DNA from: Candidatus Zixiibacteriota bacterium
Lineage (GTDB): Bacteria > Zixibacteria > MSB-5A5 > GN15 > PGXB01
DNA: 64,000 bases
Assembly (NCBI GenBank): GCA_016933955.1
Contig: JAFGTT010000008.1
Coordinates: 1-64,000 of the forward strand
Direction: 5' to 3'
In this document: one piece after another, positions 6,938 to 64,000 of the stretch
Layout of the letters: every line of letters begins with the position of its first letter
Numbering within the stretch: position 1 is the stretch's first letter
Made by a program: the position numbers and the translations under genes
The notes under the pieces: model-generated
Seen by the model: only the letters and a program-made list of their open reading frames with translations
The model's database searches: none
Told to the model about the DNA's origin: nothing

Positions 6938-7552
6938 GTGAGTAAGAACAGCATCATTGATTTAGCATCATTGGTTAGACGATGTCAGGATGGCGACGAA
7001 CAGGCCTGGATAAAACTAATTGATCGAGTCCATCTTGAGGTTTTTCTGATCTGCCGGAAGATGAAATTATCTCATCAGGAGATTTTTGAGATTTACGGAC
7101 AGGTCAGTCTGAAACTTCTGGATAATCTGAAAAATATCAGGTCACCGGAGAAAATAATGAGTTATGTCGCTTCGATAACCAGAAATGAAATCCTGTCATT
7201 ATATCGGAAGGAGCGGTTATTCAAGCGTTTGGTAAATCCGGTGGCGTATGAATTATATGATTCCCGACGGGATCAGCCCGACGAGATACTGGAAGCCAAG
7301 CTGGACAGCGATGCTTTGTGGGAGGCGATAGTGACTCTGCCGGATCAGGAATTCCGGCTAATCCAGCTTTTATTTTTTGACCGGCGCAAGCTCGATTACC
7401 GGGAGATTTCCCGGACGCTCGGGATTCCCAAATCATCGATCGGCCCGATGCGGGGCCGGATAATTGCCCGTCTTCGCGGAATGCTAAAACAGCGGGGGAT
7501 AATTGACGGTGAAGGATCGGGGGACAGATTAAGCAGTAATACGGGGGATTGA
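6938..7552 (+). CDS. ECF-family sigma factor of the first CHAT module
   Basis: A 204-aa sigma-70 family protein with region 2 (about 8-80; FLICRKMKLSHQEIFEIYGQ, VASITRNEILSLYRKER) and region 4 (about 135-195; LDYREISRTLGIPKSSIGPM). I choose the GTG at 6938: from there it aligns residue for residue with the paralogue at 59005 (VSKN...LASLVRRC against MDKN...LSSLVGRC), and the extra N-terminus from the ATG at 6851 has no counterpart. There is no strong ribosome site before the GTG. It is one base from the next gene, so probably co-transcribed with the putative anti-sigma and the TPR-CHAT protease. It presumably directs RNA polymerase to a small regulon, most simply its own operon. Confidence 0.85.
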   Translation: MSKNSIIDLASLVRRCQDGDEQAWIKLIDRVHLEVFLICRKMKLSHQEIFEIYGQVSLKLLDNLKNIRSPEKIMSYVASITRNEILSLYRKERLFKRLVNPVAYELYDSRRDQPDEILEAKLDSDALWEAIVTLPDQEFRLIQLLFFDRRKLDYREISRTLGIPKSSIGPMRGRIIARLRGMLKQRGIIDGEGSGDRLSSNTGD

Positions 7553-7553
7553 A

Positions 7554-8144
7554 ATGCAGAATGATTATATGAATGATGAGGTTCTCTACAAGTATCTGGC
7601 CGGGGAACTTTCCGCCTCGGAAGAAGACGATCTTTGCAGGCGACTGGCATCCGATAAGTGCCTGAAAGAGACTTTTGATATTATCCGGGAGCTTCACTCC
7701 GAGGGAAGCGGGACGGATTGGAGCCAGATTCGGGTTTCGGCCCTGGAACTGGCCAGAAGAGTTTTCAATGATTATCGCCGTAGTCTGAAGGAAAAGACCT
7801 TCAGTTATGGAATTAATGTTTATGATTCCAAAGTTCTCCCTCTCCCCCAGGGAGTCAGACCGGCCAGGATTGATAATCGCAGGTTAACATACAAGGTCGG
7901 TCGATTTGATCTTGATATATCTCTTTACCCGGTAACAACCGATTCATATGAACTAATCGGTCAGATAACCGGATCGGAAGAAAGCCGGGTGACCGGAGTG
8001 AAACTTAAATCAAAAAAGGCGGTTATTGAATCAGAGGCCGATCGGTACAACCTCTTTCGTTTCGCGCGGATACCGATCGGGAATTATACTCTCAATTTAA
8101 TGTCCGGCGATAAGAAAATCGGCGCTGTAACATTCGAATTATGA
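7554..8144 (+). CDS. Putative anti-sigma/adaptor protein between sigma factor and TPR-CHAT
   Basis: A soluble 196-aa protein with no transmembrane helix or signal. Residues 8-40 (VLYKYLAGELSASEEDDL) look like the N-terminal helices of anti-sigma factors of the FecR/zinc-finger class, without the zinc His/Cys residues. A linker (about 45-95) leads to a conserved beta-rich C-terminal domain (about 97-196) with LPLPQGVRPARIDNRRL, LYPVTTDSYELIGQI and NLFRFARIPIGNYTLNL, similar to carboxypeptidase-regulatory-like modules. The paralogue at 59627 shares both parts. Its position, 1 base after the sigma gene and overlapping the protease start by 4 bp, suggests it holds the sigma factor and may be the protease substrate. 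That is inference; no named family is recognised. Confidence 0.7.
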   Translation: MQNDYMNDEVLYKYLAGELSASEEDDLCRRLASDKCLKETFDIIRELHSEGSGTDWSQIRVSALELARRVFNDYRRSLKEKTFSYGINVYDSKVLPLPQGVRPARIDNRRLTYKVGRFDLDISLYPVTTDSYELIGQITGSEESRVTGVKLKSKKAVIESEADRYNLFRFARIPIGNYTLNLMSGDKKIGAVTFEL

Positions 8145-10903
8145 TAAGTATCGGGCAGTTTCACAAATTCAGAAACAGGCAGGTCCTGGAGCGTTATATC
8201 ACCAGGAAACATGGCGGTGATATCGCCAAATTTCTGACTGACGTTGATATCAGCCTTAATCACATTATCAAGGCTGATATGAAAAAGATGGGTGAGTGTG
8301 TGGATGATGCCAAACAGATTTTTAAGTACCTGCCGCAGCAATACAAACCGCGGTTATATCAGATAATCGGGCGGTACAATAATTTCAAAGCCAATTACCG
8401 GGCGGCCCTGAAATATTACCTCCGGGCCCGGGAGATGCATGAGAAAGCGGGCAATACGGAAGCCGTGGCGCGGCTCAACAAGGGATTGATCGATGTTTAC
8501 AATTATCTGGGGCAGTATGACGAATCTCTGAGAATCGGGCGGATGGCCCTGCGGTTCTTTCGACGGAAGAGATTTATTGAAGACGCCGGGCAGGTTTTGG
8601 TCAATATCGGAAATATTTATCATCGCATGGATAACAATCCCATGGCACTCAGGTATTACAACCGGGCCAGGAAAATTTTCGTTAAAACCGGCGGGTATCA
8701 GCTGGCCATAACCGAGTTCAATCGGGCCAATGTTTATGCCAACCTGAACCAGATCAGAAAAGCCGAAACATTATACCGGTGTGCCGCGGCGTTGTATCAT
8801 GAAGCAGGTATGGAAATTTCCGTATTAAGGGCGGAATCGGCCCTGGCCTACCTATTGTATCTGGGAAATCGCTACACCGAGTCTTTGACCATGTTCGAGC
8901 GAACCAACGATCGCATGGAGCAGCTTGGTTCAGTCCGGCCATCGGTGATTTTACTTCTCGACCTGGTTGAAATAAACGCCAAATTGAATCAGTATGGTTC
9001 GGCTATACTTCTGGCCGAGACGTTGATCCCCCGCTTGAAGAAGTATGGTATGCCCTATGAAATGGCCAAGACATATTATTTCGCGGCCGACGCCCTGATC
9101 CGGGTGGGCGATTATGATCGGGCTTCCCGGATGTTGAAACAGGCTGTCAGGGTTTTTGAGGAAGAGCGAAATGTGTTATGGCTGGGGATGGTCAGTATTG
9201 CCGAAAGTCGTCTTTATCAGGCCGAGGGGAAGTATGGTCCGGCCATCAAGTCGGCGACGGAAGCCAGGAGTTATTTTCGGAGGAGTGGTGACGAGGTAAG
9301 GCGGATAGACGCCGAGATCACGATGGTCGAGGCGTATCAATGCTCCGGCGATATGGCCCGGGCAGATCGGGTGTCGAAACGTCTTCTGAAAATGCGTCTG
9401 TTGAGTTACCAGAAATACAATCTCTATTATCCGCTCGGCCAGGGCTATTATACCGCCGGTCAATATGATAAGGCATATGCCATGTTTAAAAAGGCCATAA
9501 CGGAGGTGGAGAAAATGTTATCCGGCCTTTACCCCGATGAAATTCGATTTTTCTTCATGACAGACAAATATGATTGTTACCGAATGGCGGTCGAATGTCT
9601 TTTGCGGCTGGGACGGACGCGCGAATCGTTCATTACCAGTCTGAAGGGGATCGAGCTGGTCAATCAAAAATCGGCTTTTGAAAAAAAGATTCAGGCGGAG
9701 GTTCCCGCTGAACTCCTGGAGAAACGCGATCGGCTCCGGGCCGCCCTGAAACGGCTCAGTCAAACCGCGCCCGGTGAACAACGCAGTTCCGGAAATATGG
9801 CCACCTACTATTCAATCGAACAGAAATTGTGGTATAACGAGCGTAAAATAAGAGCCAGTCTGTATCCCGATGAAAAAAAGGTCAGGCGGAAGACATCCGC
9901 GGAATTTGATCCCCGCCGGTTATTGCAGAAAGACGAGACAATGGTCAGTTTCTTTTCTTCGGGAGCGATGTCGGGGGCTTTTTGCGCCGCAGCCGATAAG
10001 ATCGATTTTGTCAGGTTCGATATCACTCGTGAGGAATTGGAAGTAATGCTTCGCAAGCTTCATTTCATTTTTGAGAAATCGGTTTTTGGATTACGAGATG
10101 TCGATCGCACCCGGCAGATTGCCGATTATTATCTGGAGTTGCTTTATCGCAGGATATTCCGACCGGTAGAGTCTTATCTTTCCGGCCGCAAAGTAATCGC
10201 TATTACCGACAGCAGTTTCGGGCAAATTCCGCTGATTGCCCTGCGGGATGAGGCCGGGATTTATTTAAAAGACAAATATGATATCCGGATTCTCGTGAAT
10301 CCGGGGGATTTGAAACGTCGGCTGGTTTCCGATGATCGGATGGTAAAGACCAGGAATGCCATTTTTGCGGTATCATCCGATTCACTGCCGTCGATTGACA
10401 GGGAAGCAAACGAGATCAACAAATTGTTTGAGAAATCCCGGCTGTATTTAGACAAGACGGCCAGCTGTCATAATTTATCGGAGGAATTGAAGGAGGTTGA
10501 TGGTTTTGTGCACATAGCCGCGCACGCCTCGCGATCATCGGAGAATCCGTTGTTTTCGATGATTCTGATGGGTGACGGGCCGTTTTATCCGTTCGATTTA
10601 TTTGAATCTGGTGTACGGGCCAGGTTGGTCACTTTGTCGGGATGTCAGACAGCCGCCCCCGGTCTTTACTACGGCAATTCTTTCAGTCTCGCCAAGGCAT
10701 TTTACCAGGCCGGAAGTCAACACGTTCTGGCATCGTTATGGCCGGTCTCTGATAAGCTGAGTATGCTCTTTATGATAGAGTTCTATAAGACTCTGGCTAA
10801 AGTGGGGAATGTTTACAGTGCTTATCAAAATGCGGTCAACAGGATCATTGATATCACCGATAATCCCGCGTTTTGGAGTTCATTCGTTTTGCTTGGCATT
10901 TAG
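8141..10903 (+). CDS. TPR-CHAT caspase-like protease, first copy
   Basis: A 920-aa cytoplasmic protein. Residues about 50-520 are tandem tetratricopeptide repeats (for example LKYYLRAREMHEKAGNTEAV, LVNIGNIYHRMDNNPMALRY). The C-terminal part (about 580-920) is a CHAT domain of the caspase/separase clan, with predicted catalytic His795 in HIAAHAS and Cys835 in LVTLSGCQTAAPG, followed by the usual ASLWPVSD and DNPAFWSSFVLLG. Both catalytic residues are intact. The start overlaps the adaptor stop as ATGA. Known relatives include Csx29, the TPR-CHAT protease of type III-E CRISPR systems that cleaves an inhibitor of a sigma factor; here a sigma factor and small partner are encoded immediately upstream but no CRISPR genes are present. 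The paralogue at 60217 has exactly the same length. Confidence 0.9.
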   Translation: MISIGQFHKFRNRQVLERYITRKHGGDIAKFLTDVDISLNHIIKADMKKMGECVDDAKQIFKYLPQQYKPRLYQIIGRYNNFKANYRAALKYYLRAREMHEKAGNTEAVARLNKGLIDVYNYLGQYDESLRIGRMALRFFRRKRFIEDAGQVLVNIGNIYHRMDNNPMALRYYNRARKIFVKTGGYQLAITEFNRANVYANLNQIRKAETLYRCAAALYHEAGMEISVLRAESALAYLLYLGNRYTESLTMFERTNDRMEQLGSVRPSVILLLDLVEINAKLNQYGSAILLAETLIPRLKKYGMPYEMAKTYYFAADALIRVGDYDRASRMLKQAVRVFEEERNVLWLGMVSIAESRLYQAEGKYGPAIKSATEARSYFRRSGDEVRRIDAEITMVEAYQCSGDMARADRVSKRLLKMRLLSYQKYNLYYPLGQGYYTAGQYDKAYAMFKKAITEVEKMLSGLYPDEIRFFFMTDKYDCYRMAVECLLRLGRTRESFITSLKGIELVNQKSAFEKKIQAEVPAELLEKRDRLRAALKRLSQTAPGEQRSSGNMATYYSIEQKLWYNERKIRASLYPDEKKVRRKTSAEFDPRRLLQKDETMVSFFSSGAMSGAFCAAADKIDFVRFDITREELEVMLRKLHFIFEKSVFGLRDVDRTRQIADYYLELLYRRIFRPVESYLSGRKVIAITDSSFGQIPLIALRDEAGIYLKDKYDIRILVNPGDLKRRLVSDDRMVKTRNAIFAVSSDSLPSIDREANEINKLFEKSRLYLDKTASCHNLSEELKEVDGFVHIAAHASRSSENPLFSMILMGDGPFYPFDLFESGVRARLVTLSGCQTAAPGLYYGNSFSLAKAFYQAGSQHVLASLWPVSDKLSMLFMIEFYKTLAKVGNVYSAYQNAVNRIIDITDNPAFWSSFVLLGI

Positions 10904-10919
10904 CAGGGAGAGTCTAATC

Positions 10920-12404
10920 ATGAGCAATATCAAATTTTCGGCTTTGGGGGTGTTGTTATTTTTATTCGTATCTCTGGTCGCCTTTCCGTGGCATAACGGG
11001 GAGGCCGGCCAAAGAGATGTAATCCAGATTCATCCGGCGGCCATTCCCGGTCAAGCGATTGTGAATCTTGAAGCCGCCAAGTCGGTACATGATCTGGCAG
11101 GTGATATTGACGGCCGGGTACTGAAGAGCGATCCATGTAAGAAAAATATATATCTCATCTCGTTTCCCCGTGATTATACATTTGATGAAATCAGGGATGC
11201 CCTGAAGCATAATTCCGGGGTTATATCGGTCCGGCCCAATTACCGGGTAGCATTACCCGAAGTAAACCAGGGAAGTGATATTTTTCCCGATCAGAGCAAT
11301 CCCATTTACCTGGAAGGATCCAGTCCGAGTGCTTATTATGAGCAACAGAGTGAGGGCAATGTCGGATCGGATTCGGCCAATATGCTGGCAACCGGGCGGG
11401 ATGTGGTGGTCGGGATTATCGATAACGGGGTTGAGTATTACCATCCGTTGTTTATCTATATCGACAGTATTACTTCCGATACGACCCTGGACAGTACATT
11501 TGCCGACATGGGATACGATTATGTCGATGATGACAGCAGTGCGGCCGAGGAAACGGGTGACGCTTATGGACACGGGACATTCGTAACCGGAATCATCAGG
11601 CTGGTGGCCCCGAATTGCCGGGTTATACCGTATCGTGCTTTCGATGACGACGGTGTCGGAAGCAGTTTCGATGTATCATCGGCCATTTACCAGGCGATTG
11701 AAGACGGTGTCGATGTGCTTAATATGAGTTTCGGTTTATACTCCAGCGACACCTCAATAGCTGATGCGGTGGGCGAGGCGTACGAAGCAGGAATTGCCAT
11801 GGTGGCTTCATGCGGCAATGATAACACCGCCACACCGTTCTATCCGGCCTCATACACCGGAGTGATTGCGGTCTCGGCCATTGACAGCCTGGATTACCCG
11901 GCGGATTTCTCCAATCACGGAGCATATATCGATTATTGCGCACCGGGAGTCAACGTGTACAGCTCCCTGGCCGGTGAGTACAAGTGGGGGATCTGGAGCG
12001 GGACCTCGTTCGCGGCGCCGCAGGTGACGGGGATATGTGCCTTGATCCTCGAATGGAAACCGGCCTATTCCAGTTTGCAGGTCGACAGCCTGATTCGCAA
12101 GACAGCCGACACTTCGCTGGCCTGGGGTTCTTTTACGCCTCATGATTCATCGTACGGTTACGGCCGGGCCGACGCCTATGAGGTGGCCCTATGTCTGCGT
12201 CGAGGCGATGTGGATAATTCAGGAACCATTGATTCGTCGGATATCGTTTATTTGAACAGCTACCTGACAACGAGCGGTCCGCCCCCGGTACCGATCTTGA
12301 AACTGGGGGATGTCAACTGCTCCGGGATAATTAATACTCTGGATGTGGCGTATTTGATCAATTATCTCAACAGCGGGGGACCGGCTCCATGCTGTGGGGA
12401 ATAG
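10920..12404 (+). CDS. Secreted subtilisin-like serine protease with C-terminal dockerin repeats
   Basis: A 494-aa protein from the ATG at 10920, which has a GGGAGAG ribosome site and begins a signal peptide (about 1-29). Residues about 40-115 resemble an inhibitor_I9-type propeptide. The S8 catalytic domain has Asp168 (GIIDNG), His218 (GHGTFVTG), oxyanion Asn300 and Ser363 (GTSFAAPQ). Residues 428-488 form a two-repeat type I dockerin (GDVDNSGTIDSSD and GDVNCSGIINTLDVAYLINYL region). It lies 16 bp after the TPR-CHAT gene and ends before a strong terminator, so it is the last gene of the module. A homologue with the same propeptide and catalytic core follows the second TPR-CHAT gene. The dockerin suggests docking to a cohesin on a cell-surface scaffold encoded elsewhere. 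Confidence 0.9.
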   Translation: MSNIKFSALGVLLFLFVSLVAFPWHNGEAGQRDVIQIHPAAIPGQAIVNLEAAKSVHDLAGDIDGRVLKSDPCKKNIYLISFPRDYTFDEIRDALKHNSGVISVRPNYRVALPEVNQGSDIFPDQSNPIYLEGSSPSAYYEQQSEGNVGSDSANMLATGRDVVVGIIDNGVEYYHPLFIYIDSITSDTTLDSTFADMGYDYVDDDSSAAEETGDAYGHGTFVTGIIRLVAPNCRVIPYRAFDDDGVGSSFDVSSAIYQAIEDGVDVLNMSFGLYSSDTSIADAVGEAYEAGIAMVASCGNDNTATPFYPASYTGVIAVSAIDSLDYPADFSNHGAYIDYCAPGVNVYSSLAGEYKWGIWSGTSFAAPQVTGICALILEWKPAYSSLQVDSLIRKTADTSLAWGSFTPHDSSYGYGRADAYEVALCLRRGDVDNSGTIDSSDIVYLNSYLTTSGPPPVPILKLGDVNCSGIINTLDVAYLINYLNSGGPAPCCGE

Positions 12405-12443
12405 ATCTATATTGGGGTTAGCAAGGGTATTTTCATTCCAAAG

Positions 12444-12473
12444 AAAAGCCTCCGCAAAACGGAGGCTTTTTTT
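12444..12473 (+). terminator. Rho-independent terminator of the first sigma/CHAT/subtilase module
   Basis: Strong hairpin AAAGCCTCCG / CGGAGGCTTT with a 5-base CAAAA loop and a run of seven T, 40 bp after the subtilase stop. Confidence 0.92.
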
Positions 12474-12541
12474 GATAAATGTGATTGACAAATCCTTGTT
12501 ATGGTTATATCAAATTTTCATATCTATTACGGGAGAGGCCT

Positions 12542-13369
12542 ATGCACCTGGACGAAATCGGCCCATGGTCCGAAATGAAATTGAAAATAGTCAAGGATTA
12601 TGCAAAGGTATACTCCACTATACTCAAAAAATACCCCAGACTCAAATACTATTATATTGATGCCTTTTCCGGGCCGGGCATTCACAAACGTAAGAAAACC
12701 GGTGAATTTATACCGGGTAGTCCGCTTAATGTATTGTCAGTCAGACTGAATTTCCATGGGTATTATTTCATGGATAAGGATTGTGAGAAAATAGGATTTT
12801 TAAAGAAATTGATAGGGCCAAATGAAAACATAAAATATATATGTGGTGATTCCAATGTGCTATTGATTAAGGAAGTCTTTCCAGAAATTAAATATGAGGA
12901 TTATAAAAGAGCATTATGTTTTCTTGATCCTTATGGGTTACATCTGGATTGGAAGGTCGTGGAATTCGCAGGTAAAATGAAGACAATTGAGGTGTTCATT
13001 CTTTTTCCCTTGGAGGACATGAATCGGAATATTTTGCATAAAAACCCAGTGGATGTTAAGAAGAATCAAAAGATAAGAATGAACGCTTTCTGGGGTGATG
13101 AGTCGTGGTTTGAATATACATATGAAGAGGATTTGCCGGATTTATTTGGCGAGCCCACTCGATTTAAGGATAAGATTGATATCCTGTTGAAGGCATATAA
13201 GAAGCGCCTAAAGAATATTGCTAATTTTCAATATGTACCAGATCCTATTCCTTTTAGGAATAAGAAAAACGCCATAATATATTATATTTATTTTGCCACC
13301 CAGAAAAAGACTGCGTATGATGTGGTAAATTATATATTGAAGAAGTACAGTAAAACGGGCAGGATATAG
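12542..13369 (+). CDS. tcmP: Three-Cys-motif partner protein TcmP
   Basis: A 275-aa protein matching the TcmP family by its opening (HLDEIGPWSEMKLKIVKDY), the YYYIDAFSGPG segment, and the CFLDPYGLHLDWKVVEF block; the layout is reminiscent of a Rossmann methyltransferase-like fold. The ATG at 12542 is preceded by GGGAGAGG at a good distance; an upstream in-frame ATG at 12485 lies before this site. TcmP proteins are defined by their constant pairing with a three-Cys-motif protein, and that partner follows here with a one-base TAGTG overlap. The biochemical role of the pair is not established. The gene is clearly richer in A+T and AAA/AAT codons than the flanking genes, suggesting acquisition by transfer. 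Confidence 0.85.
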   Translation: MHLDEIGPWSEMKLKIVKDYAKVYSTILKKYPRLKYYYIDAFSGPGIHKRKKTGEFIPGSPLNVLSVRLNFHGYYFMDKDCEKIGFLKKLIGPNENIKYICGDSNVLLIKEVFPEIKYEDYKRALCFLDPYGLHLDWKVVEFAGKMKTIEVFILFPLEDMNRNILHKNPVDVKKNQKIRMNAFWGDESWFEYTYEEDLPDLFGEPTRFKDKIDILLKAYKKRLKNIANFQYVPDPIPFRNKKNAIIYYIYFATQKKTAYDVVNYILKKYSKTGRI

Positions 13370-14097
13370 TGGCCATTAAATCAGCCATAGAATGGACCGA
13401 TTCAACCTGGAATCCAATCACAGGTTGTACCAAAATCAGTCCCGGGTGTCGCTTCTGTTATGCGGAGAGAATGGCGAATCGATTGAGGGCAATGGGTCAA
13501 AAGAATTATGCCAGAGGGTTTGATGTCGTGCTTCATGATGATGTCCTGGACTATCCGCTTCAATGGAAAAAAGCGCAGAATATATTTGTAAATTCCATGA
13601 GCGATCTTTTTCATGAACAGGTGCCTGTCCCATTTATACAAAAGATTTTCGGGGTAATGCATAGAGCTCATTGGCATCGTTTTCAGATTCTCACAAAAAG
13701 ATCCGGGCGCTTGAAAGACCTGTCCGACTTATTGCACTGGACTCCAAACATATGGATGGGAGTCAGTATCGAAAACAGCAGGTACAAGTTTAGAATCGAT
13801 GATTTGAGAGAAACAAAAGCAACCATTAAATTTCTTTCTATTGAACCACTCATTGGCCGAATCGGAAGAATAAACTTAAGGAATGTGGATTGGGTAATAG
13901 CAGGGGGAGAATCCGGTCCCGGGGCAAGGCCCATCCGGCAGGATTGGGTTACTGAAATACGTGACCAATGTCTTGAAGCCGATGTTCCCTTTTTTTTCAA
14001 ACAATGGGGTGGTGTTAATAAGAAGAAAAACGGCCGAATTCTGGAAGGGAGAACGTGGGATGAAATGCCGGCCATAATGTCCCCGGCAGGAATCTAA
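13369..14097 (+). CDS. Three-Cys-motif protein (phage Gp37/Gp68, DUF5131 family)
   Basis: A 242-aa protein with the family signature near its N-terminus: IEWTDSTWNPITGC, then SPGCRFCYAERMA, giving a Cys-x6-Cys-x2-Cys arrangement at about residues 20-30 as in iron-sulfur, radical-SAM-like proteins. Further family blocks are NIFVNSMSDLFHE, ILTKR, WMGVSIE and VIAGGESGPGARP. It starts with GTG overlapping the TcmP stop by one base. Homologues occur in phages, plasmids and genomic islands. The activity is unknown; the pair is likely a mobile accessory cassette. Codon use is AT-rich like TcmP. Confidence 0.87.
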   Translation: MAIKSAIEWTDSTWNPITGCTKISPGCRFCYAERMANRLRAMGQKNYARGFDVVLHDDVLDYPLQWKKAQNIFVNSMSDLFHEQVPVPFIQKIFGVMHRAHWHRFQILTKRSGRLKDLSDLLHWTPNIWMGVSIENSRYKFRIDDLRETKATIKFLSIEPLIGRIGRINLRNVDWVIAGGESGPGARPIRQDWVTEIRDQCLEADVPFFFKQWGGVNKKKNGRILEGRTWDEMPAIMSPAGI

Positions 14098-17867: not shown

Positions 17868-18284
17868 CTATTCGCTTATTGAATATATCATCAGGCTGTC
17901 TATGATGTCACCTTGTTTCTTAATCTGAATCGTCGTGTCTTGCGTAATATAGCCTTCTTTTTCAAACCGCAGCAATATGTCATATTGATTTTGAAAGCAT
18001 CCAAATTGCTCGCATATATTGCAACCACTAAATCGTGCCAATCGATAAAAACCAGTGGAATCCGTCAAATAGCAGGCTGAATCATATTCATCTTGAAAAA
18101 TGGTGACGTAGACGCTGTCCAAGGGTAGTTGGGAATCATTGCCAACCACATATCCACTTATTAGATAGAGAAGGTGTTCACTATCTGTGACCGTGTATTT
18201 AGTACATCCAGAAATAAAACAGGTAATAATTAATAAACTTGATATTAGAAGCAATACTAATATTTGCTTTTTTCTGGCATTCAC
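17868..18284 (-). CDS. Small lipoprotein with a carboxypeptidase-regulatory-like domain
   Basis: A 138-aa protein starting at the GTG at 18284, chosen because GGGAGG lies 6 bases upstream and the lipoprotein signal (NARKKQILVLLL, lipobox FISGC) follows at once; the longer in-frame start at 18350 adds an odd hydrophilic/isoleucine-rich leader. The mature part (SGYVVGNDSQLPLDSVYVTI, CYLTDSTGFYRLARF, EKEGYITQDTTI) resembles a carboxypeptidase-regulatory-like beta-sandwich. Probably anchored to the outer membrane. No specific function recognised. One copy of the 130-bp repeat lies about 110 bp upstream. Confidence 0.65.
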   Translation of the reverse strand: MNARKKQILVLLLISSLLIITCFISGCTKYTVTDSEHLLYLISGYVVGNDSQLPLDSVYVTIFQDEYDSACYLTDSTGFYRLARFSGCNICEQFGCFQNQYDILLRFEKEGYITQDTTIQIKKQGDIIDSLMIYSISE

Positions 18285-18395
18285 TGCCGACCTCCCATGA
18301 TCTATTATTATTATTATGTTAAACACATCCTCGAATTCAGATATACCCAATATAATAGACTATTCTATAGCCGCAATTGTTTATTTATTTTTTCT

Positions 18396-18525
18396 CCTTT
18401 CGTATATTAAGAGTCGTGTTTTGGGGGGGAGGAGTCCTTCGATGGTTCTATCACCATATAGAACCGGGGTTGTCGAAACAGATTCTTCCCCTCTGTGTTT
18501 TCATCGAATCAGCAGGGAACAAACC
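18396..18525. repeat. 130-bp dispersed repeat, copy 1
   Basis: Nearly the same sequence recurs at 22505-22636 in the same orientation. Both run from CCTTTCGTATATTAAGAG through a G-run, AGGAGTCCTTCGATGG, a hairpin and GATTCTTCCCCTCTGTG to AGCAGGGAACAAACC. The internal hairpin has identical 8-bp arms (GGTTCTAT/ATAGAACC) in both copies but different 6-base loops (CACCAT here). Each copy lies about 85-110 bp upstream of a minus-strand lipoprotein gene. Confidence 0.85.
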
Positions 18526-18616
18526 CCTCAGTGATTCTTCCCGCCTCTATTCCGATTCTTTTAATTGGACAGTAATGGCAGATCCAAATACGCCTTGTGA
18601 TCGCAAAATTACTTTT

Positions 18617-18990
18617 TCATTTCATCATGATAATTTTCTTTGTGCAGGTGAAATCCCCGGCAATAAATCTCGCAAAATATATCCCGCTGGTAACCAATCG
18701 TCCCTTGCAGTCATAGCCATCCCAGGTCAACTGGTGGTCGCCAGCCGGAATCGGGCTATCCACCAGAGTTATTACCCGTTGACCAAGAACATTATAGATG
18801 TTCAGACTGACAGCCGTTTCCTGCGGCAATGAAAAGGCAAACATTGTGGTCGGATTAAATGGGTTGGGATAATTACGAAAAGTAATTTCCAGTGGCTGTT
18901 CTTCTAGAATGGTTCCATCATCATTGTTTTTCGTTGCACTTTCGGGGCAGACATTCGTACTGCCGGTGCTGACATTTCTGGATATCCGGG
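18617..18990 (-). pseudogene. C-terminal sorting domain (FlgD/por-like) detached from the upstream subtilase by a frameshift
   Basis: In the frame one base off from the subtilase, the translation continues as a linker (STGSTNVCPESATKNNDDG) and a complete FlgD-like/type IX-like sorting domain (EITFRNYPNPFNPTTMFAFS, LNIYNVLGQRVITLVD, AGDHQLTWDGYD, GIYFARF, ending TKKIIMMK). No start codon or ribosome site belongs to this piece. Removing one base, for example in the GGG at 18988-18990, would join it to the subtilase at 18921. It is therefore either a real inactivating frameshift or a sequence error. Confidence 0.8.
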
Positions 18991-21356
18991 AGAGAGGTAT
19001 CGCCAATTGAGGATATACCATAAACATAGACGCTATAGGTGGAGTTGGCATCGACCGGGCAAATATAAAAACAGGTGTCCGGGCCGACATCGTATATATC
19101 CCCCATGGTGACATGTGGGTGCGATAATCTGATAAAGTATTTGACAATGGGATATTTCTGATGGGGTGAGGGTATCCATCGGGCGGTAATATCGTTTCCG
19201 TAAAGCAAATGCCAGTTTTCGTCTTCCTCCGAAATCAACTCCGGGGCTCCGGCTATATCTTTGGCGGCAGATATTAAATCCGTATTAATTTTAAGGGGAA
19301 CATCGCCGCATCCCGTAACGGTCGGGACGCCATAGCTGAAATCGGTGGCATAAACAGCAATATCCTCGGCCCGGTGCGGCCGGGTCGTTACCGTGGCTTC
19401 ATCAGAATACGGTGCATTTTGCTGATCGGCGGTATACGGTTTTACGCGGTAAGTGTAGGTTTCCCCCCCAATCGGGTAGTAATCGTCATAATAAACATAA
19501 TCATAATCATTATTGGGAATGGTATCAATCACTTTCCAGACCGGGACCGTGGCGCTTTTACGTTCCAGTATCCAGCCTTCTTCATAGGGATTGGGATCAC
19601 TCCAGCACACACGAACGGCCTGATGCTCAAAATGATTATTAACATTGAAATAGGCGGGCTTTTGAACCTCATATTCCCCTAAAACGGTATAGGCAAATTT
19701 GACATCTTCCGGGGCGCATGGTTTCCAGCCCACATAGGTGCCGCTCACTGTCCAGATTTCGTAAACCCATGTTCGGAATACACAACTGGTTTCGGTTACG
19801 GATTCAGGAATAACACCCGCGTAATTCATTCCGAAATTTGGATTTGCGGCGGAATAACCCCTGGCCGCGACACCACGACCCCAGGCATGAGGAGATTCTA
19901 AATATGAATGCGGAAATGTCACCGATTTACGGACTTCATACCTTTTGGCGATATACACACCGTCGGCCATATTCGGAATATCAAAAAACACCATGGTCAT
20001 TGCACTCGTATTGGAATATTGATTTCCGCCATCAGCCTCCAGATGGGCCAGCATGTTGGGTAATTGGAGAATATCAAAGGCGGCCTTGGCATTAAGATTC
20101 CCCCATCCGGTATAATCATCATAGCCGATAACAGCAGGGTCTTCTTTATTATCTTTAGCCGTTAGGTTAATAATATTTTCAATATCATCATTGTACAGGG
20201 TATTGTCATAGCTTTTCAGCAATGCCGCCACACCTGCCGCATGCGGGGCGGCGGCTGAAGTTCCACCAAAATATCTTGTCCAATCATCCTGACTCCCAGC
20301 GTCTAATGAAGTTATAAAATCACCCGGGGCCACGATATCAATACCATTACCTATATTCGAAAATTTTGCGCGACGTCCATCGGTTCCATAGGCACCAACG
20401 CTTATAATACCCTGGCCATAATCCGAGGGATAATGCGGTTCGGATGAATCATCATTACCTTTTGCACAAACAACAATTCGGTTCATTTTATAAGCATAGG
20501 CCATAGAGCTTCTTACCGATATAATAAATTGATCAGCCGGATCGAAGGCCCAACTATTATTCAAAATGCCCGCTCCAATATCGACTGCAACGACGATTTT
20601 ATCTGCGACTTCGGAATAATCCAATTCATAAATACATCCTGAGTATATTTTTGAATTACCGCTTAAGCCGGATATTAGATTAATATTATTTGTGGATGCG
20701 CCTATTATTCCTGCAACTTTAGTACCATGACCACCGGCGAATTCATTATCGCCAAACACACGCGGATACAGATCCGAATGATCATTTCGGACGCCTTCAT
20801 CAATAACCGCCACAATAAGATTTGGGTCCCCAAAAGTATATTTCCATGCACCTTCAGCATTGATGCCATATACTGTATCATCATGAAAATTCCATTGCCG
20901 GTAATATAGCGTATCATTTGTAAATATATTATCAGTCTTAATTGTGCCGTTTTTATAAATATCAATATATTCACCGGCTTCCAACAGGTTTCGATACGTA
21001 TTATTACGAAAAGTTGAATCGCTAAAAATGATTTTATAATAAGACTCAAATCGAGGCCTTAAAACGGTATCTCCAAATTCATTAATTGAAATGCTATCGG
21101 TAAGATTTTTATTTTTAAATGCTCTCACAATGCATTTAAAACTGGAATTTATCAGGATTTTACCGGAAATGCTCTCTTTTAGAATAATACCTTCCTTTCC
21201 TACCGTATCAATCCCGGGTTGAATCTCGATTATATTTTTATCGAATTTCACAACCAATTCTTTACTCGTTTCATTTAACGATTTCGAGAATAATTCCATA
21301 TTGAATATTCCGTATATAGACAATAATAGCACAAATAATTTTATGATATTATTCAT
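18921..21356 (-). CDS. Secreted subtilisin-like protease with fibronectin-like domains, frameshifted near its end
   Basis: An 811-aa reading frame: signal peptide (about 1-24), long N-terminal prodomain-like region (about 30-165), S8 catalytic domain with Asp186 (AVIDEG), His210 (GGHGTKVAG), oxyanion Asn301 and Ser367 (GGTSAAAPHAAG), then beta-sandwich regions including fibronectin-III-like segments (EEGWILERKSATVPVWKVID, YTYRVKPYTADQQNAPYSD). The frame runs into an unnatural tail (KCQHRQYECLPRKCNEKQ) while the expected sorting domain lies in the neighbouring frame at 18617-18990. The full product would be about 910 aa. As it stands the protease would lack its surface-sorting signal. Base composition is AT-richer than the subtilases of the CHAT modules, to which it is only distantly similar. 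Confidence 0.85.
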   Translation of the reverse strand: MNNIIKLFVLLLSIYGIFNMELFSKSLNETSKELVVKFDKNIIEIQPGIDTVGKEGIILKESISGKILINSSFKCIVRAFKNKNLTDSISINEFGDTVLRPRFESYYKIIFSDSTFRNNTYRNLLEAGEYIDIYKNGTIKTDNIFTNDTLYYRQWNFHDDTVYGINAEGAWKYTFGDPNLIVAVIDEGVRNDHSDLYPRVFGDNEFAGGHGTKVAGIIGASTNNINLISGLSGNSKIYSGCIYELDYSEVADKIVVAVDIGAGILNNSWAFDPADQFIISVRSSMAYAYKMNRIVVCAKGNDDSSEPHYPSDYGQGIISVGAYGTDGRRAKFSNIGNGIDIVAPGDFITSLDAGSQDDWTRYFGGTSAAAPHAAGVAALLKSYDNTLYNDDIENIINLTAKDNKEDPAVIGYDDYTGWGNLNAKAAFDILQLPNMLAHLEADGGNQYSNTSAMTMVFFDIPNMADGVYIAKRYEVRKSVTFPHSYLESPHAWGRGVAARGYSAANPNFGMNYAGVIPESVTETSCVFRTWVYEIWTVSGTYVGWKPCAPEDVKFAYTVLGEYEVQKPAYFNVNNHFEHQAVRVCWSDPNPYEEGWILERKSATVPVWKVIDTIPNNDYDYVYYDDYYPIGGETYTYRVKPYTADQQNAPYSDEATVTTRPHRAEDIAVYATDFSYGVPTVTGCGDVPLKINTDLISAAKDIAGAPELISEEDENWHLLYGNDITARWIPSPHQKYPIVKYFIRLSHPHVTMGDIYDVGPDTCFYICPVDANSTYSVYVYGISSIGDTSLPDIQKCQHRQYECLPRKCNEKQ

Positions 21357-21457
21357 AACTTCTCCTTTGGATTTGACTGGATATGATATTATGTTACCAA
21401 AAAGATACCAATTGGCTTTTGCCCGGTAATAGTATCGAGAAATGGCAATATTGATAT

Positions 21458-22420
21458 CTATTGATGCTTCTGAGAATTGCTACATACAGATAATTCTACG
21501 AAATCAACAAGAATATGATTTTCGCCGCCATCAGACCGCATAATTCTGAGTGGTCCGCTTATGGCCTCAAAATCAGGCTCTCCCGACTCACAATACACAA
21601 TATATTCACCATTCGGCGACCAACTCGGTTGCACTCCTGAATTGGTTGTCAGGGTAGTGATATGTTTATCGATTGTATTCAGTATTCTGATATCATCATC
21701 GAGACTAAAGACTATATTGTTGCCGTCCGGTGAAACATCAGGATCGTAATATGTTGTATAAGGTTTACCCTTTTCCCATTTGTATATCAATCTCTCCGTT
21801 GAATCAGAAACCGATATGAAATTCATCCTACTGGAATCCAAATGGTTCCAATCCAAAAATGTTATATAGAAAAGACTGTCTCCATTTGTGAAATCAAAAT
21901 GACTGCCATATTCAATAAAACACCTTTTATTCGATCCCGATGGGTCCATCAGCCATATTCCGCCGCTATCGTTACTAATCCTATTATATGCAATAAGCGA
22001 ATCGGAATAAGACCAATCACATGTATATATATCGCCGGAATATGTAAGTTGAGTAAGGTTATCGCCATTGGATCTTATTTTAAAAACGTTTCCCCCATAG
22101 CCCGGGGCCGTGAAAACCAGCCAATTGCAATCGTGAGACCATGCTAAATCCACTAAGATATAATATTGATTCAATATTAATATGGGCTGAAGATCACTGC
22201 CATCCGGCCTGATTTTGTGTATACCATTGGGTAATATATCCGGATAACCATTCCAGATAAAGGCAATCCATTCCCCATCCGGTGACCAACGAGGATAGGC
22301 TCTTGAGGGTCGAATTGGCTTTGGCGTAGCAATAGTGTCATCATTCTTATCGCATGAATATAATAACATGGTAACTGATAAAAACGGGATAATTATGAAT
22401 AATATTTTACGAACATCCAT
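21458..22420 (-). CDS. TolB-like beta-propeller lipoprotein
   Basis: A 320-aa protein with a lipoprotein signal (lipobox LYSC at about residues 20-23) and repeated PD40/TolB propeller blades: YPRWSPDGEWIAFIWNG, LAWSHDCNWLVFTAP, CDWSYSDSLIAYNR, DPDVSPDGNNIVFSLD, PSWSPNGEYIVYCESG. Each blade ends with a turn such as GIHKIRPDGSDL or IWLMDPSGSNK. Likely a periplasmic, membrane-anchored binding protein; no TolB partners (Pal, TolA) are near. It lies upstream of the subtilase on the same strand with about a 100-bp gap. Gene certain, role unknown. Confidence 0.8.
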   Translation of the reverse strand: MDVRKILFIIIPFLSVTMLLYSCDKNDDTIATPKPIRPSRAYPRWSPDGEWIAFIWNGYPDILPNGIHKIRPDGSDLQPILILNQYYILVDLAWSHDCNWLVFTAPGYGGNVFKIRSNGDNLTQLTYSGDIYTCDWSYSDSLIAYNRISNDSGGIWLMDPSGSNKRCFIEYGSHFDFTNGDSLFYITFLDWNHLDSSRMNFISVSDSTERLIYKWEKGKPYTTYYDPDVSPDGNNIVFSLDDDIRILNTIDKHITTLTTNSGVQPSWSPNGEYIVYCESGEPDFEAISGPLRIMRSDGGENHILVDFVELSVCSNSQKHQ

Positions 22421-22504
22421 TTTATCTTATAAATCTTATTCTATGATTCCATTTAATATTATATTAAACTCAAAAGCATCAGTAAACATTTATTTGATCC
22501 TTCC

Positions 22505-23291: not shown

Positions 23292-23469
23292 ATACAAGCA
23301 TCCTTCCTTCATGTGATTTCTTTCATCCGTCTTATTTAACGGCATTAATCCAATGGCGGCTATTGATCAGCTGTCAGCCGTAGTTTGATAATTATGTATG
23401 CGGCTGAAAAAACTGCACCGGTTTTCTATGGTACCCCAATAAATTAAGGTCGCCAGTCATTCATCTTCA

Positions 23470-59004: not shown

Positions 59005-59589
59005 GTGGACAAAAACGATAGTAATTATCTTTCATCGCTGGTAGGCCGGTGTCTGGCCGATGACAGGAATGCCTGGACCGAACTGGTGGAGCGCATCACC
59101 CCGCTGGTTTTTTCAATATGCCGCAGGATGAAATTATCGCGCGAGGACAGTTTTGATATTTATGGTCAGGTGTCGTTTTTACTCTGGAAAAATCTGGATA
59201 GATTACAGACGCCGGCCAAATTGCTGTCTTACGTAACAACCATAACCCGTCGGGTTGTCTATGCTCATCAAAAGAAATCCAGGATACTGGAGCGGGTGGA
59301 AGAGGCCATCAAGTTGGAAACCGGCGATTTGTCGGCGGAAACACCCGAGGAAGTTTACGCCGTGCGGGAGAGAAGCGAGATATTATTAAAAGCCCTGGCC
59401 CGTCTTCCCAGACGAGATTATCAGCTAATTCGGGCGTTGTTTTTTAACCGGAGCAATCCCACCTATGAGGAAATTGCCCGGCAACTGGGCATACCAGTCT
59501 CGTCGATCGGGCCATCGCGCGAGCGTTGCTTTAAAAAACTGTATCGCCTGCTGAAGAAAAACGAGCGATTTTTTAGGTATTTTTTATGA
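59005..59589 (+). CDS. ECF-family sigma factor of the second CHAT module
   Basis: A 194-aa sigma factor, paralogue of the one at 6938: region 2 (FSICRRMKLSREDSFDIYGQ, YVTTITRRVVYAHQKK) and region 4 (YEEIARQLGIPVSSIGPSRE). The SSIGP turn in region 4 is shared by both copies. The start must be the GTG at 59005, because an in-frame TAA lies four codons upstream; this also confirms the GTG choice for the first copy. It is the first gene of the module; 37 bp separate it from the adaptor gene. Its target promoters are unknown, probably including its own operon. Confidence 0.88.
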   Translation: MDKNDSNYLSSLVGRCLADDRNAWTELVERITPLVFSICRRMKLSREDSFDIYGQVSFLLWKNLDRLQTPAKLLSYVTTITRRVVYAHQKKSRILERVEEAIKLETGDLSAETPEEVYAVRERSEILLKALARLPRRDYQLIRALFFNRSNPTYEEIARQLGIPVSSIGPSRERCFKKLYRLLKKNERFFRYFL

Positions 59590-59626: not shown

Positions 59627-60214
59627 ATGAAAAACGACCCAAACAAACTTGAACTCCTGCTGGAACTTGCCCGGGGCGGGTTGTCGGGCAACCGGAAAGT
59701 AAAAATCGAGTCCGAACTGGCCGCCGACGGAGAGTTACGTGATCTTTATAATATCGCAAAAAGCCTTCAGGAAGAAGGTTCAAGGACTGACCGGGACCAG
59801 CTTTACCGGTCGGCTATTGACATGTCGGGCAGGATGTTCGATGATATCCTGGAGGCTCGCCGGACAGGTCGCCCGAATAAAGGTATTGCCATTTTCGATT
59901 CCGGTTTTGTCCCTCTGCCGGAGGGGGTCCGGCCAGCCGCAATTGATACCCGGAAATTGAGGTACGCTTTTGAAAATTACGAGCTGGAATTGACTTTGTA
60001 TCCGGTTTCATCAGATTCTTTTGAAATAATCGGGCGGCTTTCAGGATCCGATCAGGAGCCTGACAAAATCACTCTTCGCCGGGGAAAAACCGTTTACACC
60101 GTCGAGACCGACCCGTTTCGCCTATTTCGATTCGCCCGGGTGCCATCTCTTGATTACACCCTGGAAATATCTCGCGGCGGCGAGGTTATCGGGCAGATCG
60201 ATTTGAACCTGTAA
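59627..60214 (+). CDS. Putative anti-sigma/adaptor protein, second copy
   Basis: A 195-aa paralogue of the protein at 7554, beginning at the ATG at 59627 after GGAGGAGGG. The N-terminal helical part (LELLLELARGGLSGNRKVKI) is more diverged than in the first copy, while the C-terminal beta domain is clearly conserved: IFDSGFVPLPEGVRPAAIDT, LYPVSSDSFEIIGRLSG, PFRLFRFARVPSLDYTLEI. The stronger conservation of the C-terminal domain suggests it is the part that meets the conserved protease, while the N-terminus matches its own sigma factor. No transmembrane segment. Two bases separate it from the TPR-CHAT gene. Confidence 0.7.
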   Translation: MKNDPNKLELLLELARGGLSGNRKVKIESELAADGELRDLYNIAKSLQEEGSRTDRDQLYRSAIDMSGRMFDDILEARRTGRPNKGIAIFDSGFVPLPEGVRPAAIDTRKLRYAFENYELELTLYPVSSDSFEIIGRLSGSDQEPDKITLRRGKTVYTVETDPFRLFRFARVPSLDYTLEISRGGEVIGQIDLNL

Positions 60215-60216
60215 TT

Positions 60217-62979
60217 ATGATTGACTTGTCACACATACAGGATCTCAATAGTCGATCCGCGGTCGAGGCGTTTATTTCCGACCGCTACGATGACAATGTT
60301 CTCGATTTTTTGCACGACTTGGATCGGGGTATCAACCGTCTGATCCGGACCGATCTGAAAAAATCGGCCCGTTATCTGGAAGCTGTAAAAAGGATTTTCA
60401 GGTATTTGCCGCCCAACCTGAAACCGCGTCTTTTTGCCATCCAGGGCCGATTTCACCATTGGACCGGTCAATATGGATCGGCCTTACGGTATTATCGTAT
60501 GGCCTTGAGGGAATTCCGGCGGAGGAGGAATACCGAAGCGGTGGCCCGGCTGGGCAAGGGGTTGATGGATGTTTACATGTATCTGGGGCGATACCGGGAG
60601 GCGCTTAATATCGGCCGAGATTCGCTGAATTTCTTCCGCAGAAACCGGTTTCAGACCGACGCCGGGCAGATTCTTAATAATATCGGTAATGTCTATCATC
60701 GGATGGATAATAATCATCAGGCTCTTTCCCATTACAACCGGGCTCTGGAAATATTCGGTGAGGAGGATAGTGTTTCGCGGGCGATTGTGCAATACAACCG
60801 GGCCAATGTTTACACCAATCTCAATCAACTTCGGAAAGCCGAGGAGTTGTACCGATCGGCGGCCGAGCTGTATCGCCGGTCCGGGATGGAGATCGCCGAA
60901 ACCCAGGCGGAGTACTCCCTGGCTTATCTTTATTTTCTTGAGGATCGCTACACCGAGGCGGCCACGGTGTTTGAAGCCGTTTACAATAAGTTTAACGCCC
61001 TGGGCGATGTTAAATCGGCGACCAATGCCCGGCTTGATATGGTCGAGATCGATATCCAGCTTAACCAGTACGGGTCGGCGATTATGGCCGCTGATGAAAT
61101 CATTCCCGAATTCGGCCGGCTGGGAATGCGCTATGAGCAGGCCAAAGCCTGTTTCTTTGCCGCCGAGGCCCGGATCAAGCTGGGAGATTATGTCCTGGCT
61201 TCACGCCGGTTGCGAACGGCCGAATCACTTTTTGTCAGGGAAGACAACAATCACTGGCTGGGTATGATTCATATTACCAAGAGCCGTCTGATGATCGCCC
61301 GGAGGCGGTTTGCGGACACTCTCAGGGAGACTGACCGGGCTATCGAAAGATTTGTGCGAAGCGGCAATGAACGGCGGCGGATCGATGCCGAGATAATAAA
61401 AATCGAGGCTATGATGCAGAAGGGTGATATCCGGGGCGCCTTGAAACTGGCCGGGACCTTTACCGATGAAAAACTGGTCAGCTACCAGTTGTACAACTTG
61501 CACTGTGTTATCGGGCAGTGCTATTACAATCTCCGGGAATATGATGTGGCTCTGGATAAGTTCCGTGAAGCGGTATGGATTGTCGAAAAAATGCTGGAAG
61601 GTCTCTATCCCGATGAAATTAGCTATTTTTTCGTAATCGATAAATATTACAGCTACAAAATGGTGGTCGATTGCCTTTTAAAACTGGGACGCATACAGGA
61701 TTCCTTCATCTCCAATCTTAAGGCCCTGGAAATTATCAACCGCAAGGCCGCCTCCGAACGACATCTGGAAAAAGAGGTTCCTCAGGAACTGGTAAACCGG
61801 CGCGATGAACTTCGGGCGGCGCTGAAAAAGATGAACCAGTCGCCCCGGGACAGCCAGCGACAGGCTTACAGCTATGCCCGATATTTTGCGCTGGAACAGG
61901 AACTCTGGGCCAACGAGCGCAAGATTCGAGCTTGCCTCTATCCCGACCGGATCAAGAAAGACAACGGCTTAGGGGCGAACGACGATATTATCGGATTACT
62001 GCGCCCGGATGAAACCATCGTCAATTTCATCACCACCGGGGCAATTACCGGGGTCTTTTGTGTCAACCGCAATAAAACGGAATTTGCTCAGCTGGAATTG
62101 AATCATGATGTGCTGGAATCGCTTCTCAGGCGATTACATTTTGTCTTTGAATCGGTGGTTTCGGGATATAAATATATTGATGAAGCGGGATTGGCGGCCG
62201 AAACCTATCTTAAGGAGATTTATCGGCTGGTTTTCAAACCGATCCGATCCCATCTTACCGGCGACAGAATAATAATCATGGCCGACGGCAGTTTCGGCCA
62301 GATTCCCTTCAATGCCCTCAAGGATGAAAACAATCATTATCTGATGGAAGATTTCCGTCTCAGTTACGCGGTCAATCCCGATGATCTTCGGGACAGAACC
62401 GAACTGGCCGGACTGAGCGAATGGAAAAACAATGCCATTTTCGCCATTTCGGGTGATTTACTGCCTTCGATTGAAATCGAGGCCCGCCGGATAAAAGATA
62501 TTTTCGGTCAATCGAAAGTATATTATGACCAGGCCGCTGACCGTCAGTCGCTGTTGAAAGAAATTGGGCGGGCCGATGGTTTTCTGCATATTGCCGCCCA
62601 TGCCTCACGATCATCGGAAAACCCCCTGTTTTCCCGGATTTTAATGGGTGACGGCCCATTTTATCCCTTTGATCTCTTCGAAACAGGTATAAGAGCAAAG
62701 CTGGTAACGCTTTCCGGTTGCCAAACGGCCGCTCCCGGATTATATTACGGTAATTCTTTCAGTCTCGCCAAAGCCTTTTATCAGGCGGGGGGAAGATTCG
62801 TCCTGGCGACATTATGGCCGGTGGCCGATAAGGTCAGCATGCTGTTTATGATACGATTTTATCAGGCACTGGCCGAGAAAGAAAATATACATGAGGCGTA
62901 CTGGAAAACGGTCAGGTCGATGATCGACGTCACCGATAATCCGGCTTTCTGGAGTTCATTTGTGTTATTGGGAATATAG
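60217..62979 (+). CDS. TPR-CHAT caspase-like protease, second copy
   Basis: A 920-aa protein, the same length as the copy at 8141 and similar throughout, including the TPR solenoid (about 50-520: SALRYYRMALREFRRRRNTE, ILNNIGNVYHRMDNNHQAL) and the CHAT domain (His795 in HIAAHAS, Cys835 in LVTLSGCQTAAPG, FVLATLWPVADK, DNPAFWSSFVLLGI). The stretch around both catalytic residues (RSSENPLFS, MGDGPFYPFDLFE) is almost unchanged between copies, so activity is probably maintained in both. The extreme N-terminus (1-40) is the most diverged part and may give specificity. Confidence 0.9.
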   Translation: MIDLSHIQDLNSRSAVEAFISDRYDDNVLDFLHDLDRGINRLIRTDLKKSARYLEAVKRIFRYLPPNLKPRLFAIQGRFHHWTGQYGSALRYYRMALREFRRRRNTEAVARLGKGLMDVYMYLGRYREALNIGRDSLNFFRRNRFQTDAGQILNNIGNVYHRMDNNHQALSHYNRALEIFGEEDSVSRAIVQYNRANVYTNLNQLRKAEELYRSAAELYRRSGMEIAETQAEYSLAYLYFLEDRYTEAATVFEAVYNKFNALGDVKSATNARLDMVEIDIQLNQYGSAIMAADEIIPEFGRLGMRYEQAKACFFAAEARIKLGDYVLASRRLRTAESLFVREDNNHWLGMIHITKSRLMIARRRFADTLRETDRAIERFVRSGNERRRIDAEIIKIEAMMQKGDIRGALKLAGTFTDEKLVSYQLYNLHCVIGQCYYNLREYDVALDKFREAVWIVEKMLEGLYPDEISYFFVIDKYYSYKMVVDCLLKLGRIQDSFISNLKALEIINRKAASERHLEKEVPQELVNRRDELRAALKKMNQSPRDSQRQAYSYARYFALEQELWANERKIRACLYPDRIKKDNGLGANDDIIGLLRPDETIVNFITTGAITGVFCVNRNKTEFAQLELNHDVLESLLRRLHFVFESVVSGYKYIDEAGLAAETYLKEIYRLVFKPIRSHLTGDRIIIMADGSFGQIPFNALKDENNHYLMEDFRLSYAVNPDDLRDRTELAGLSEWKNNAIFAISGDLLPSIEIEARRIKDIFGQSKVYYDQAADRQSLLKEIGRADGFLHIAAHASRSSENPLFSRILMGDGPFYPFDLFETGIRAKLVTLSGCQTAAPGLYYGNSFSLAKAFYQAGGRFVLATLWPVADKVSMLFMIRFYQALAEKENIHEAYWKTVRSMIDVTDNPAFWSSFVLLGI

Positions 62980-62993: not shown

Positions 62994-64000
62994 ATGATAC
63001 GATTTAAAAACATTCGGCGTGTTTTAGCGGTCTTTTTATCGATAATATCTATACTGCTGGTGTCGCAACCGGAGTTGTGGGCACTTGACAGAATGGCGGA
63101 TCAGGCAATTGTCCGAGTCCGTGGGAATGTCAATATTAATTCCGTCATAGGTGACATCAACGGTATGCCGATCGATTCCATCAATCAGAGCAACACCTAC
63201 CTGGTGACATTCCCCGGCACGATTCCGGTTGATTCCGCCGTCAACAGACTTCGCCCTGAAAACGGGGTTCTACATGCCCAGCCCAATTTTATCTGGACGT
63301 TACCGGAAGTCGAGCAGATCAGCCAATCATTTCCCGATGAAAATCGCCCGGTTTTCACTATGGGAATCAGCCCGATACAATACTACGATACGGCCCTGGT
63401 GTATGATATCAATTCCGATACGGCCAACACGTTTTCCACCGGTGCCGGGGTGGTGGTCGCGGTGATCGATAATGGTATCAGGGCCGATCATCCGCTTTTT
63501 GTCAATTCACTGGCCGGACCCGGTTATGATTTTGTCGATGCCGATGATGATCCTTCGGAAGTGCCCGGCGAGGTTTTCGGCCACGGGACATTCGTGGCGG
63601 GAATAATCAAGCGAATCGCCCCGGATTGTCAGATTTTACCGATCCGGGCTTTCGATGCCGACGGCTACGGCAATTCCTTCACTGCCGCCAAGGCTATTTA
63701 TTACGCACTGGAGCATGGTGCCGATGTTATTAATATGAGTTTCAGCATGAATGAATCGAACCTGGTCATGGGCACGGTCATCCAGGAGGTTCTGCGCGGC
63801 GGTCCCGTAATGGCGGCGGCTTCCGGCAATGACGGCCTGGAAATGGTTACCTATCCTTCCGGCTACAGCGGTGTTATTGCGGTTTCGGCCATCGATACAG
63901 CCGATTATATTGCCGATTTTTCCAATTTCGGTTATTATCTCGATGTTTGTGCTCCCGGGGTTAATATTTACAGTTCCCTGGCCGGCGAATACGAATGGGG
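62994..64000 (+). CDS. Secreted subtilisin-like protease of the second CHAT module (runs off the window)
   Basis: The first 335 residues are in the window. Signal peptide about 1-30; propeptide about 35-105 (QAIVRVRGNVNINSVIGDI, NTYLVTFPGTIPVDSA); S8 core with Asp159 (AVIDNG) and His198 (GHGTFVAG), oxyanion region AAASGNDG, and CAPGVNIYSSLAGEYEWG, just before the expected catalytic Ser. It closely parallels the subtilase at 10920 up to the cut. Its start is 14 bp after the TPR-CHAT stop with AGGATGGG upstream. Whether it ends in dockerin repeats cannot be seen. Confidence 0.9.
   Translation, partial: MIRFKNIRRVLAVFLSIISILLVSQPELWALDRMADQAIVRVRGNVNINSVIGDINGMPIDSINQSNTYLVTFPGTIPVDSAVNRLRPENGVLHAQPNFIWTLPEVEQISQSFPDENRPVFTMGISPIQYYDTALVYDINSDTANTFSTGAGVVVAVIDNGIRADHPLFVNSLAGPGYDFVDADDDPSEVPGEVFGHGTFVAGIIKRIAPDCQILPIRAFDADGYGNSFTAAKAIYYALEHGADVINMSFSMNESNLVMGTVIQEVLRGGPVMAAASGNDGLEMVTYPSGYSGVIAVSAIDTADYIADFSNFGYYLDVCAPGVNIYSSLAGEYEW

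Follow-up and report, generated by a model that had tools for sequence, protein, structure and literature searches.

A conserved four-gene cassette for an ECF sigma factor, a predicted anti-sigma factor, a TPR-CHAT protease and a subtilase in Zixiibacteriota and other phyla

Two paralogous cassettes in one window

The window, by which we mean the whole stretch of 64,000 nucleotides analysed from a Candidatus Zixiibacteriota bacterium, carries four genes on the forward strand that we refer to as cassette A. The first (6938..7552, +) encodes an ECF sigma factor, which matches TIGR02937 with 64.5 bits (cut-off 42.9); its open frame extends from 6851, and its start was assigned to the GTG at 6938, backed by a family alignment of 26 members (A3). 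The second (7554..8144, +) encodes a protein of 196 residues, here called the adaptor, for which a family profile (A7) and relatives with HxxxCxxC point to an anti-sigma factor. It is followed by the gene of a TPR-CHAT protease of 920 residues (8141..10903, +), with TPRs and a CHAT domain matching PF12770 with 138 bits, and by that of an exported-type S8 subtilase of 494 residues (10920..12404, +), with matches to Peptidase_S8 (149 bits) and Dockerin_1 (38.9 bits).

A previous, sequence-only reading of this DNA had described a tightly spaced co-directional operon closed by a strong terminator, and both features hold: the recomputed spacings are a 1-bp gap, a 4-bp overlap and a 16-bp gap, and an intrinsic terminator hairpin lies at 12441..12473 (+) with a dG of -20.5 kcal/mol (z -5.1 versus shuffles). 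The identities it had given to the ECF sigma factor, the TPR-CHAT protein and the subtilase agree with the TIGR02937, PF12770 and Peptidase_S8 matches. Directly past the terminator (12485-14097, +), an ORF of 294 amino acids with no Pfam match and a DUF5131 gene lie end to start.

In the TPR-CHAT protein, the proposed catalytic pair was found at the residues named earlier, His795 (codon 10523..10525, +) and Cys835 (codon 10643..10645, +), and is invariant in all 28 full-length type I relatives and in 17 of 17 sequences of the broad alignment A5. In the structural model of the protein (pLDDT 87), the TPR, pseudo-caspase and caspase regions match those of human separase and Csx29, with a Foldseek E-value of ~1e-14 and, for Csx29 complexes, a VIA Z of ~25; a separase protease structure is superimposed on the model over 308 residues at 3.1 A (Z 22). 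The NCBIfam model of Csx29 gives only 17 of 300 bits, far below its cut-off. Judged by its intact His/Cys pair and its architecture, then, the protein is a predicted protease similar to Csx29 and separase. The TPR part also resembles the MalT and Rap/NprR sensors, from which no ligand can be deduced, since TPR arrays generally match one another.

The subtilase of cassette A has a signal-peptide-like N-terminus, a prodomain and a C-terminal type I dockerin, and its triad D168/H218/S363 is invariant in 20 sequences. Most subtilases of the module in other genomes also look exported or membrane-bound, with lipoprotein-like starts in other phyla, as judged from hydrophobicity only and with some starts uncertain; no export-type start was seen in the actinomycete copy. 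The subtilase is probably the extracytoplasmic output of the module.

A second, diverged paralogous cassette (cassette B), absent from the sequence-only reading, was identified at 59005-63998 (+) with the gene order of cassette A. It comprises an ECF sigma factor (59005..59589, +; TIGR02937 74.3 bits, 42% identical to that of A), a predicted anti-sigma factor (59627..60214, +; 37% identical, 230 bits with the A1 profile) whose open frame begins at a TTG at 59594, a TPR-CHAT protease, again of 920 residues and aligning gap-free (60217..62979, +; 51% identical), and an exported-type subtilase (62994..63998, +; Peptidase_S8 107.6 bits, 42% identical). The subtilase continues beyond the end of the window, and its remainder, on locus L002, ends in a dockerin as in A. 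The 3.4-Mb genome holds no such cassette besides A and B.

Some other loci of the same genome are worth recording. On contig C19 (locus L068, 1473-6282), a sigma gene, a zf-HC2 anti-sigma gene with a likely membrane anchor and a TPR-CHAT gene (1098 aa) follow one another, with no S8 gene seen; this is another pairing of an anti-sigma factor with a CHAT protein. Within the window, a further S8 subtilase of 811 aa (18921-21356, -) borders a low-GC stretch (~18000-26000, GC 0.38-0.44), and one open frame of 3138 aa occupies 44819-54235 (-).

Conservation of the gene order across genomes

We searched 132 Zixiibacteriota genomes for the TPR-CHAT protein and obtained matches in 57 of them at E <= 1e-20. 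Wherever the contig was long enough, the order sigma, adaptor, CHAT, S8 was found in all parsed type I loci but one (L023), at which the sigma and adaptor genes are flipped relative to the CHAT gene; in nearly all of these loci the end of the adaptor gene and the start of the CHAT gene share 4 bp (ATGA). The order is unchanged in a second and a third class of Zixiibacteriota loci, the CHAT proteins of which are only ~25% identical. In the scored set, made up of Zixiibacteriota CHAT genes with sufficient flanking sequence to either side, all three partners are present at 23 of 25; the remaining two, both from the window's own genome, are large, unrelated CHAT genes.

In a scan of species genomes the module turned up in Eisenbacteria, candidate division TA06, many Chloroflexota and a planctomycete as well, and in variant form in Armatimonadetes. 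The assignment of the Chloroflexota sigma factors is partly tentative, because some of the sequences have diverged strongly: four were tested, of which two match TIGR02937 below its cut-off and two have no match. As a control, the adaptor-less CHAT genes of the same scan have a sigma gene upstream in 0 of 11 cases and an S8 gene downstream in 2 of 32; as this group is defined by the absence of the adaptor, all it says is that CHAT genes do not in general have sigma and S8 genes beside them. Searches of plasmid collections returned mainly cyanobacterial, proteobacterial and Streptomyces CHAT genes, and only one of the three neighbourhoods opened there, that of the actinomycete Nonomuraea, held the module, in a variant form.

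The adjacency of the four genes is thus not due to chance, and the survey of gene order that the sequence-only reading had suggested reveals a conserved unit, in Zixiibacteriota and in further phyla. It could still be argued that the genes are neighbours through the history of the lineage alone, with no common pathway, and cassette B, in which the block was duplicated as a unit, does imply that some of the linkage is inherited; but the order is held across phyla at ~25% protein identity and the control CHAT genes have sigma in 0 of 11 and S8 in 2 of 32 cases, and after the survey we regard this explanation as very unlikely. The sigma distances correlate less well with those of the other three genes (r 0.46-0.65) than the latter do with one another (0.83-0.87). 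Shared inheritance could account for the similarity of the four gene trees, which is no proof of interaction.

Several loci deviate in detail. Tandem cassettes within ~12-14 kb occur in Eisenbacteria (L058 / L143, two cassettes) and in Zixiibacteriota (L072). The TPR-CHAT gene is split into two open frames in four type I cassettes (L072 2641-5416, L074 2161-4844, L075 2578-5333 and L076 3001-5753). At two of these loci the break falls close to the border that precedes the catalytic CHAT half (~residue 650-690); the splits could reflect decay, an assembly error or real gene fission. In four others (L018, L019, L021 and L029), ~470-690 extra bases separate the CHAT gene from the matched S8 region, compared with ~20 in most cassettes; either an extended N-terminus of S8 or a small additional gene may account for them.

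The adaptor, its invariant arginine and the output of the sigma factor

Searched singly, the adaptors of the window matched no family. The model of adaptor A (pLDDT 88) is composed of four N-terminal helices (residues 2-79), a loop at ~92-108 and a beta-sandwich (109-196), with no transmembrane segment and no other obvious sensor besides the beta domain. For the latter, Foldseek and VIA-align returned generic beta-sandwich matches only (Z up to 7.8), and a weak resemblance to CarboxypepD_reg was noted. These structure searches hardly probed the helical domain, which was therefore assigned from sequence profiles. One built from 24 adaptors (A7) and run against PDB sequences matched solved anti-sigma domains over its first ~60 positions, namely those of DdvA (8rlz, 6e-5), 3hug (2e-4), which we take to be RslA, and RsiW (8e-3).

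Members of the adaptor family give the same picture. Two of them (L023 and L057) match zf-HC2 above its curated cut-off, and the zinc-ligand signature HxxxCxxC, or a variant differing by one residue, is present in adaptors of type II Zixiibacteriota, TA06, Eisenbacteria and Chloroflexota. Both window adaptors lack it, and they are therefore zinc-free derivatives of the family. Two further matches of the adaptor profile (L066 2881-4300 and L077 5056-6430) are restricted to the N-terminal helices and adjoin sigma genes with no CHAT gene nearby; they resemble ordinary sigma/anti-sigma pairs and thereby support the assignment. From this homology and the place of its gene beside the sigma gene, we infer that the adaptor is an anti-sigma factor. 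The earlier idea that it regulates the sigma factor is thus sustained as to its family, by the profiles, zf-HC2 and the relatives with HxxxCxxC, and stays a prediction as to its function.

The alignment of 69 adaptors, many of them less than 20% identical to those of the window, has one fully conserved column, Arg102 (codon 7857..7859, + in cassette A), conserved in 69 of 69 with the next best at 80%; in the A7 alignment it is the only invariant residue apart from Met1. It sits in the loop that links the anti-sigma helices to the beta domain, often within a GVRG or GVRP motif. Separase, metacaspases and paracaspases are examples of clan CD cysteine proteases that cut after arginine, and it is therefore predicted that the CHAT protease cuts or docks at Arg102. 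In type I adaptors the next residue is a proline, and a proline directly after the cut site is disfavoured by many cysteine proteases. The true cut site may differ from Arg102, which could be a structural or docking residue. We also weighed a caspase-type cut after Asp91 ('FD|S') and set it aside, as Asp91 is present in only 80% of adaptors compared with 100% for Arg102.

These features also bear on a switch that would work with no cut at all, in which the TPR-CHAT protein docks on the anti-sigma factor, or senses on its behalf, and a ligand alters the shape of the latter. The deeply conserved Arg102 could serve such docking, the proline that follows it in type I adaptors would fit, and in DdvA of Myxococcus xanthus, where anti-sigma and CHAT domains share one chain, a change of shape without cutting might occur. 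A pure scaffold, on the other hand, would not need the His/Cys pair that is invariant in 28/28 type I proteins and 17/17 of the broad set, and we hold such a switch to be rather unlikely.

We searched 34 upstream regions of sigma genes for a shared promoter by enumerating dyads. No shared ECF-type promoter was found in them: the top dyad, which is AT-rich, was counted 5 times versus 3-4 in shuffles, and sigma-70-like boxes were seen by eye in several of the regions. Induction of the operon by its own sigma factor, part of the sequence-only reading, finds no support.

The same result weighs on the explanation that the four genes form an effector operon, in which the sigma and anti-sigma factors would answer some other cue and the TPR-CHAT protein and the subtilase would be co-expressed outputs, the former acting on other cellular proteins (in immunity or cell death, for instance). 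DdvS, the sigma factor of DdvA, does control an antiphage island (PMC12288465). CHAT proteases serve in defence systems, and PADLOC gave weak matches to BovA and SAVED_CHAT. Yet the cassettes have no shared ECF promoter before them in the 34 regions, the anti-sigma factor has neither a transmembrane segment nor an obvious sensor beyond its beta domain, and its pairing with the CHAT protein is tight, with overlapping genes here and both parts fused in DdvA. We consider an effector operon of this kind unlikely.

A proposed switch and its relation to known systems

Taking together the gene order, the domain make-up, the anti-sigma domain homology, the intact active sites and the export-type N-termini, we read the cassette as a stand-alone, CRISPR-independent, protease-gated sigma/anti-sigma module, with a probability of roughly 0.6. 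The N-terminal helices of a soluble, zf-HC2/ZAS-type anti-sigma factor would, going by its homologs, keep the ECF sigma factor inactive. A protein or peptide signal bound by the TPR array would switch on the CHAT protease domain, which resembles separase and Csx29 in build, and this domain would cut the loop of the anti-sigma factor between helices and beta-sandwich, with the predicted site at or beside Arg102, and so free the sigma factor. The sigma factor would then transcribe its regulon, the output of which probably includes exported subtilases like that of the cassette. The looser correlation of the sigma distances, the proline after Arg102 in type I and the lack of a shared ECF-type promoter in the 34 upstream regions count against this reading. 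CHAT proteases are common in bacteria and few have a known substrate; the module offers a whole class of them a likely one that is genetically encoded, and as it has a single predicted key residue, three purified proteins would suffice for a test.

The best full-length fold match of the TPR-CHAT protein is separase, and in both of them helical repeats precede the pseudo-caspase and caspase domains. The two are only ~10% identical, and separase is a eukaryotic cohesin protease with an unrelated substrate.

Csx30, which inhibits CASP-sigma in type III-E CRISPR, is cleaved there by Csx29 (PMC10028731), so that the proposed chemistry is possible. Both systems have a TPR-CHAT protein with pseudo-caspase and active caspase domains, and a sigma factor with a dedicated inhibitor; the inhibitor here, in contrast, is a short ZAS-type anti-sigma factor, and an exported-type subtilase belongs to the unit. 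The sequence-only reading had seen no gRAMP (Cas7-11) gene near the operon, and this extends to the whole genome (96.6% complete), in which no RAMP match (PF03787) was found while control genomes were positive; the module is therefore not type III-E CRISPR. If the proposed switch is true, the CRISPR-linked Csx29/Csx30/sigma switch stands beside a broader CRISPR-free family. One may go further and picture widespread CRISPR-free 'bacterial separase' switches, in which TPR-CHAT proteins sense a protein or peptide ligand and cut a dedicated soluble anti-sigma factor after the invariant arginine to release ECF sigma factors, with type III-E CRISPR as an RNA-triggered offshoot of this older module; we offer this as a tentative idea, possible and still short of probable.

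DdvA is also retrieved, as a structure, by the TPR-CHAT model, and its PDB title describes a transmembrane anti-sigma factor. The adaptor profile matches its residues 7-52 and the TPR-CHAT profile its residues 836-950. Like the cassette, DdvS/DdvA combines an ECF sigma factor with an anti-sigma domain and a CHAT domain, and the union of the two domains in one protein supports their direct cooperation in the module. Unlike DdvA, which is one transmembrane chain, the parts are here two soluble proteins encoded by separate genes that overlap by 4 bp. To our knowledge, no subtilase belongs to the DdvS/DdvA system.

The closest precedent for the gene neighbourhood is that of the ECF54 sigma factors of Actinobacteria, for which a 2022 review describes carboxypeptidase, subtilase and CHAT genes in the genomic context and a proposed proteolytic control without an anti-sigma factor (PMC8999054). 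The idea is thus less new than the sequence-only reading had claimed. As in that description, an ECF sigma gene lies here near subtilase, CHAT and carboxypeptidase-like genes; unlike what was described for ECF54, however, the small counterpart protein of Zixiibacteriota, Chloroflexota and other phyla includes an anti-sigma domain. The actinomycete (Nonomuraea) locus L159, with the order S8, sigma, a 147-aa CarboxypepD_reg-like protein and CHAT, fits the ECF54 description; what is called a 'carboxypeptidase' there may thus be the beta domain of the adaptor, weak as the resemblance is. If our reading is true, it also explains the 'missing' anti-sigma factor of ECF54. As far as the literature consulted shows, the new elements are the predicted anti-sigma identity of the adaptor, its occurrence in several phyla, the second cassette and the one residue that lends itself to a test.
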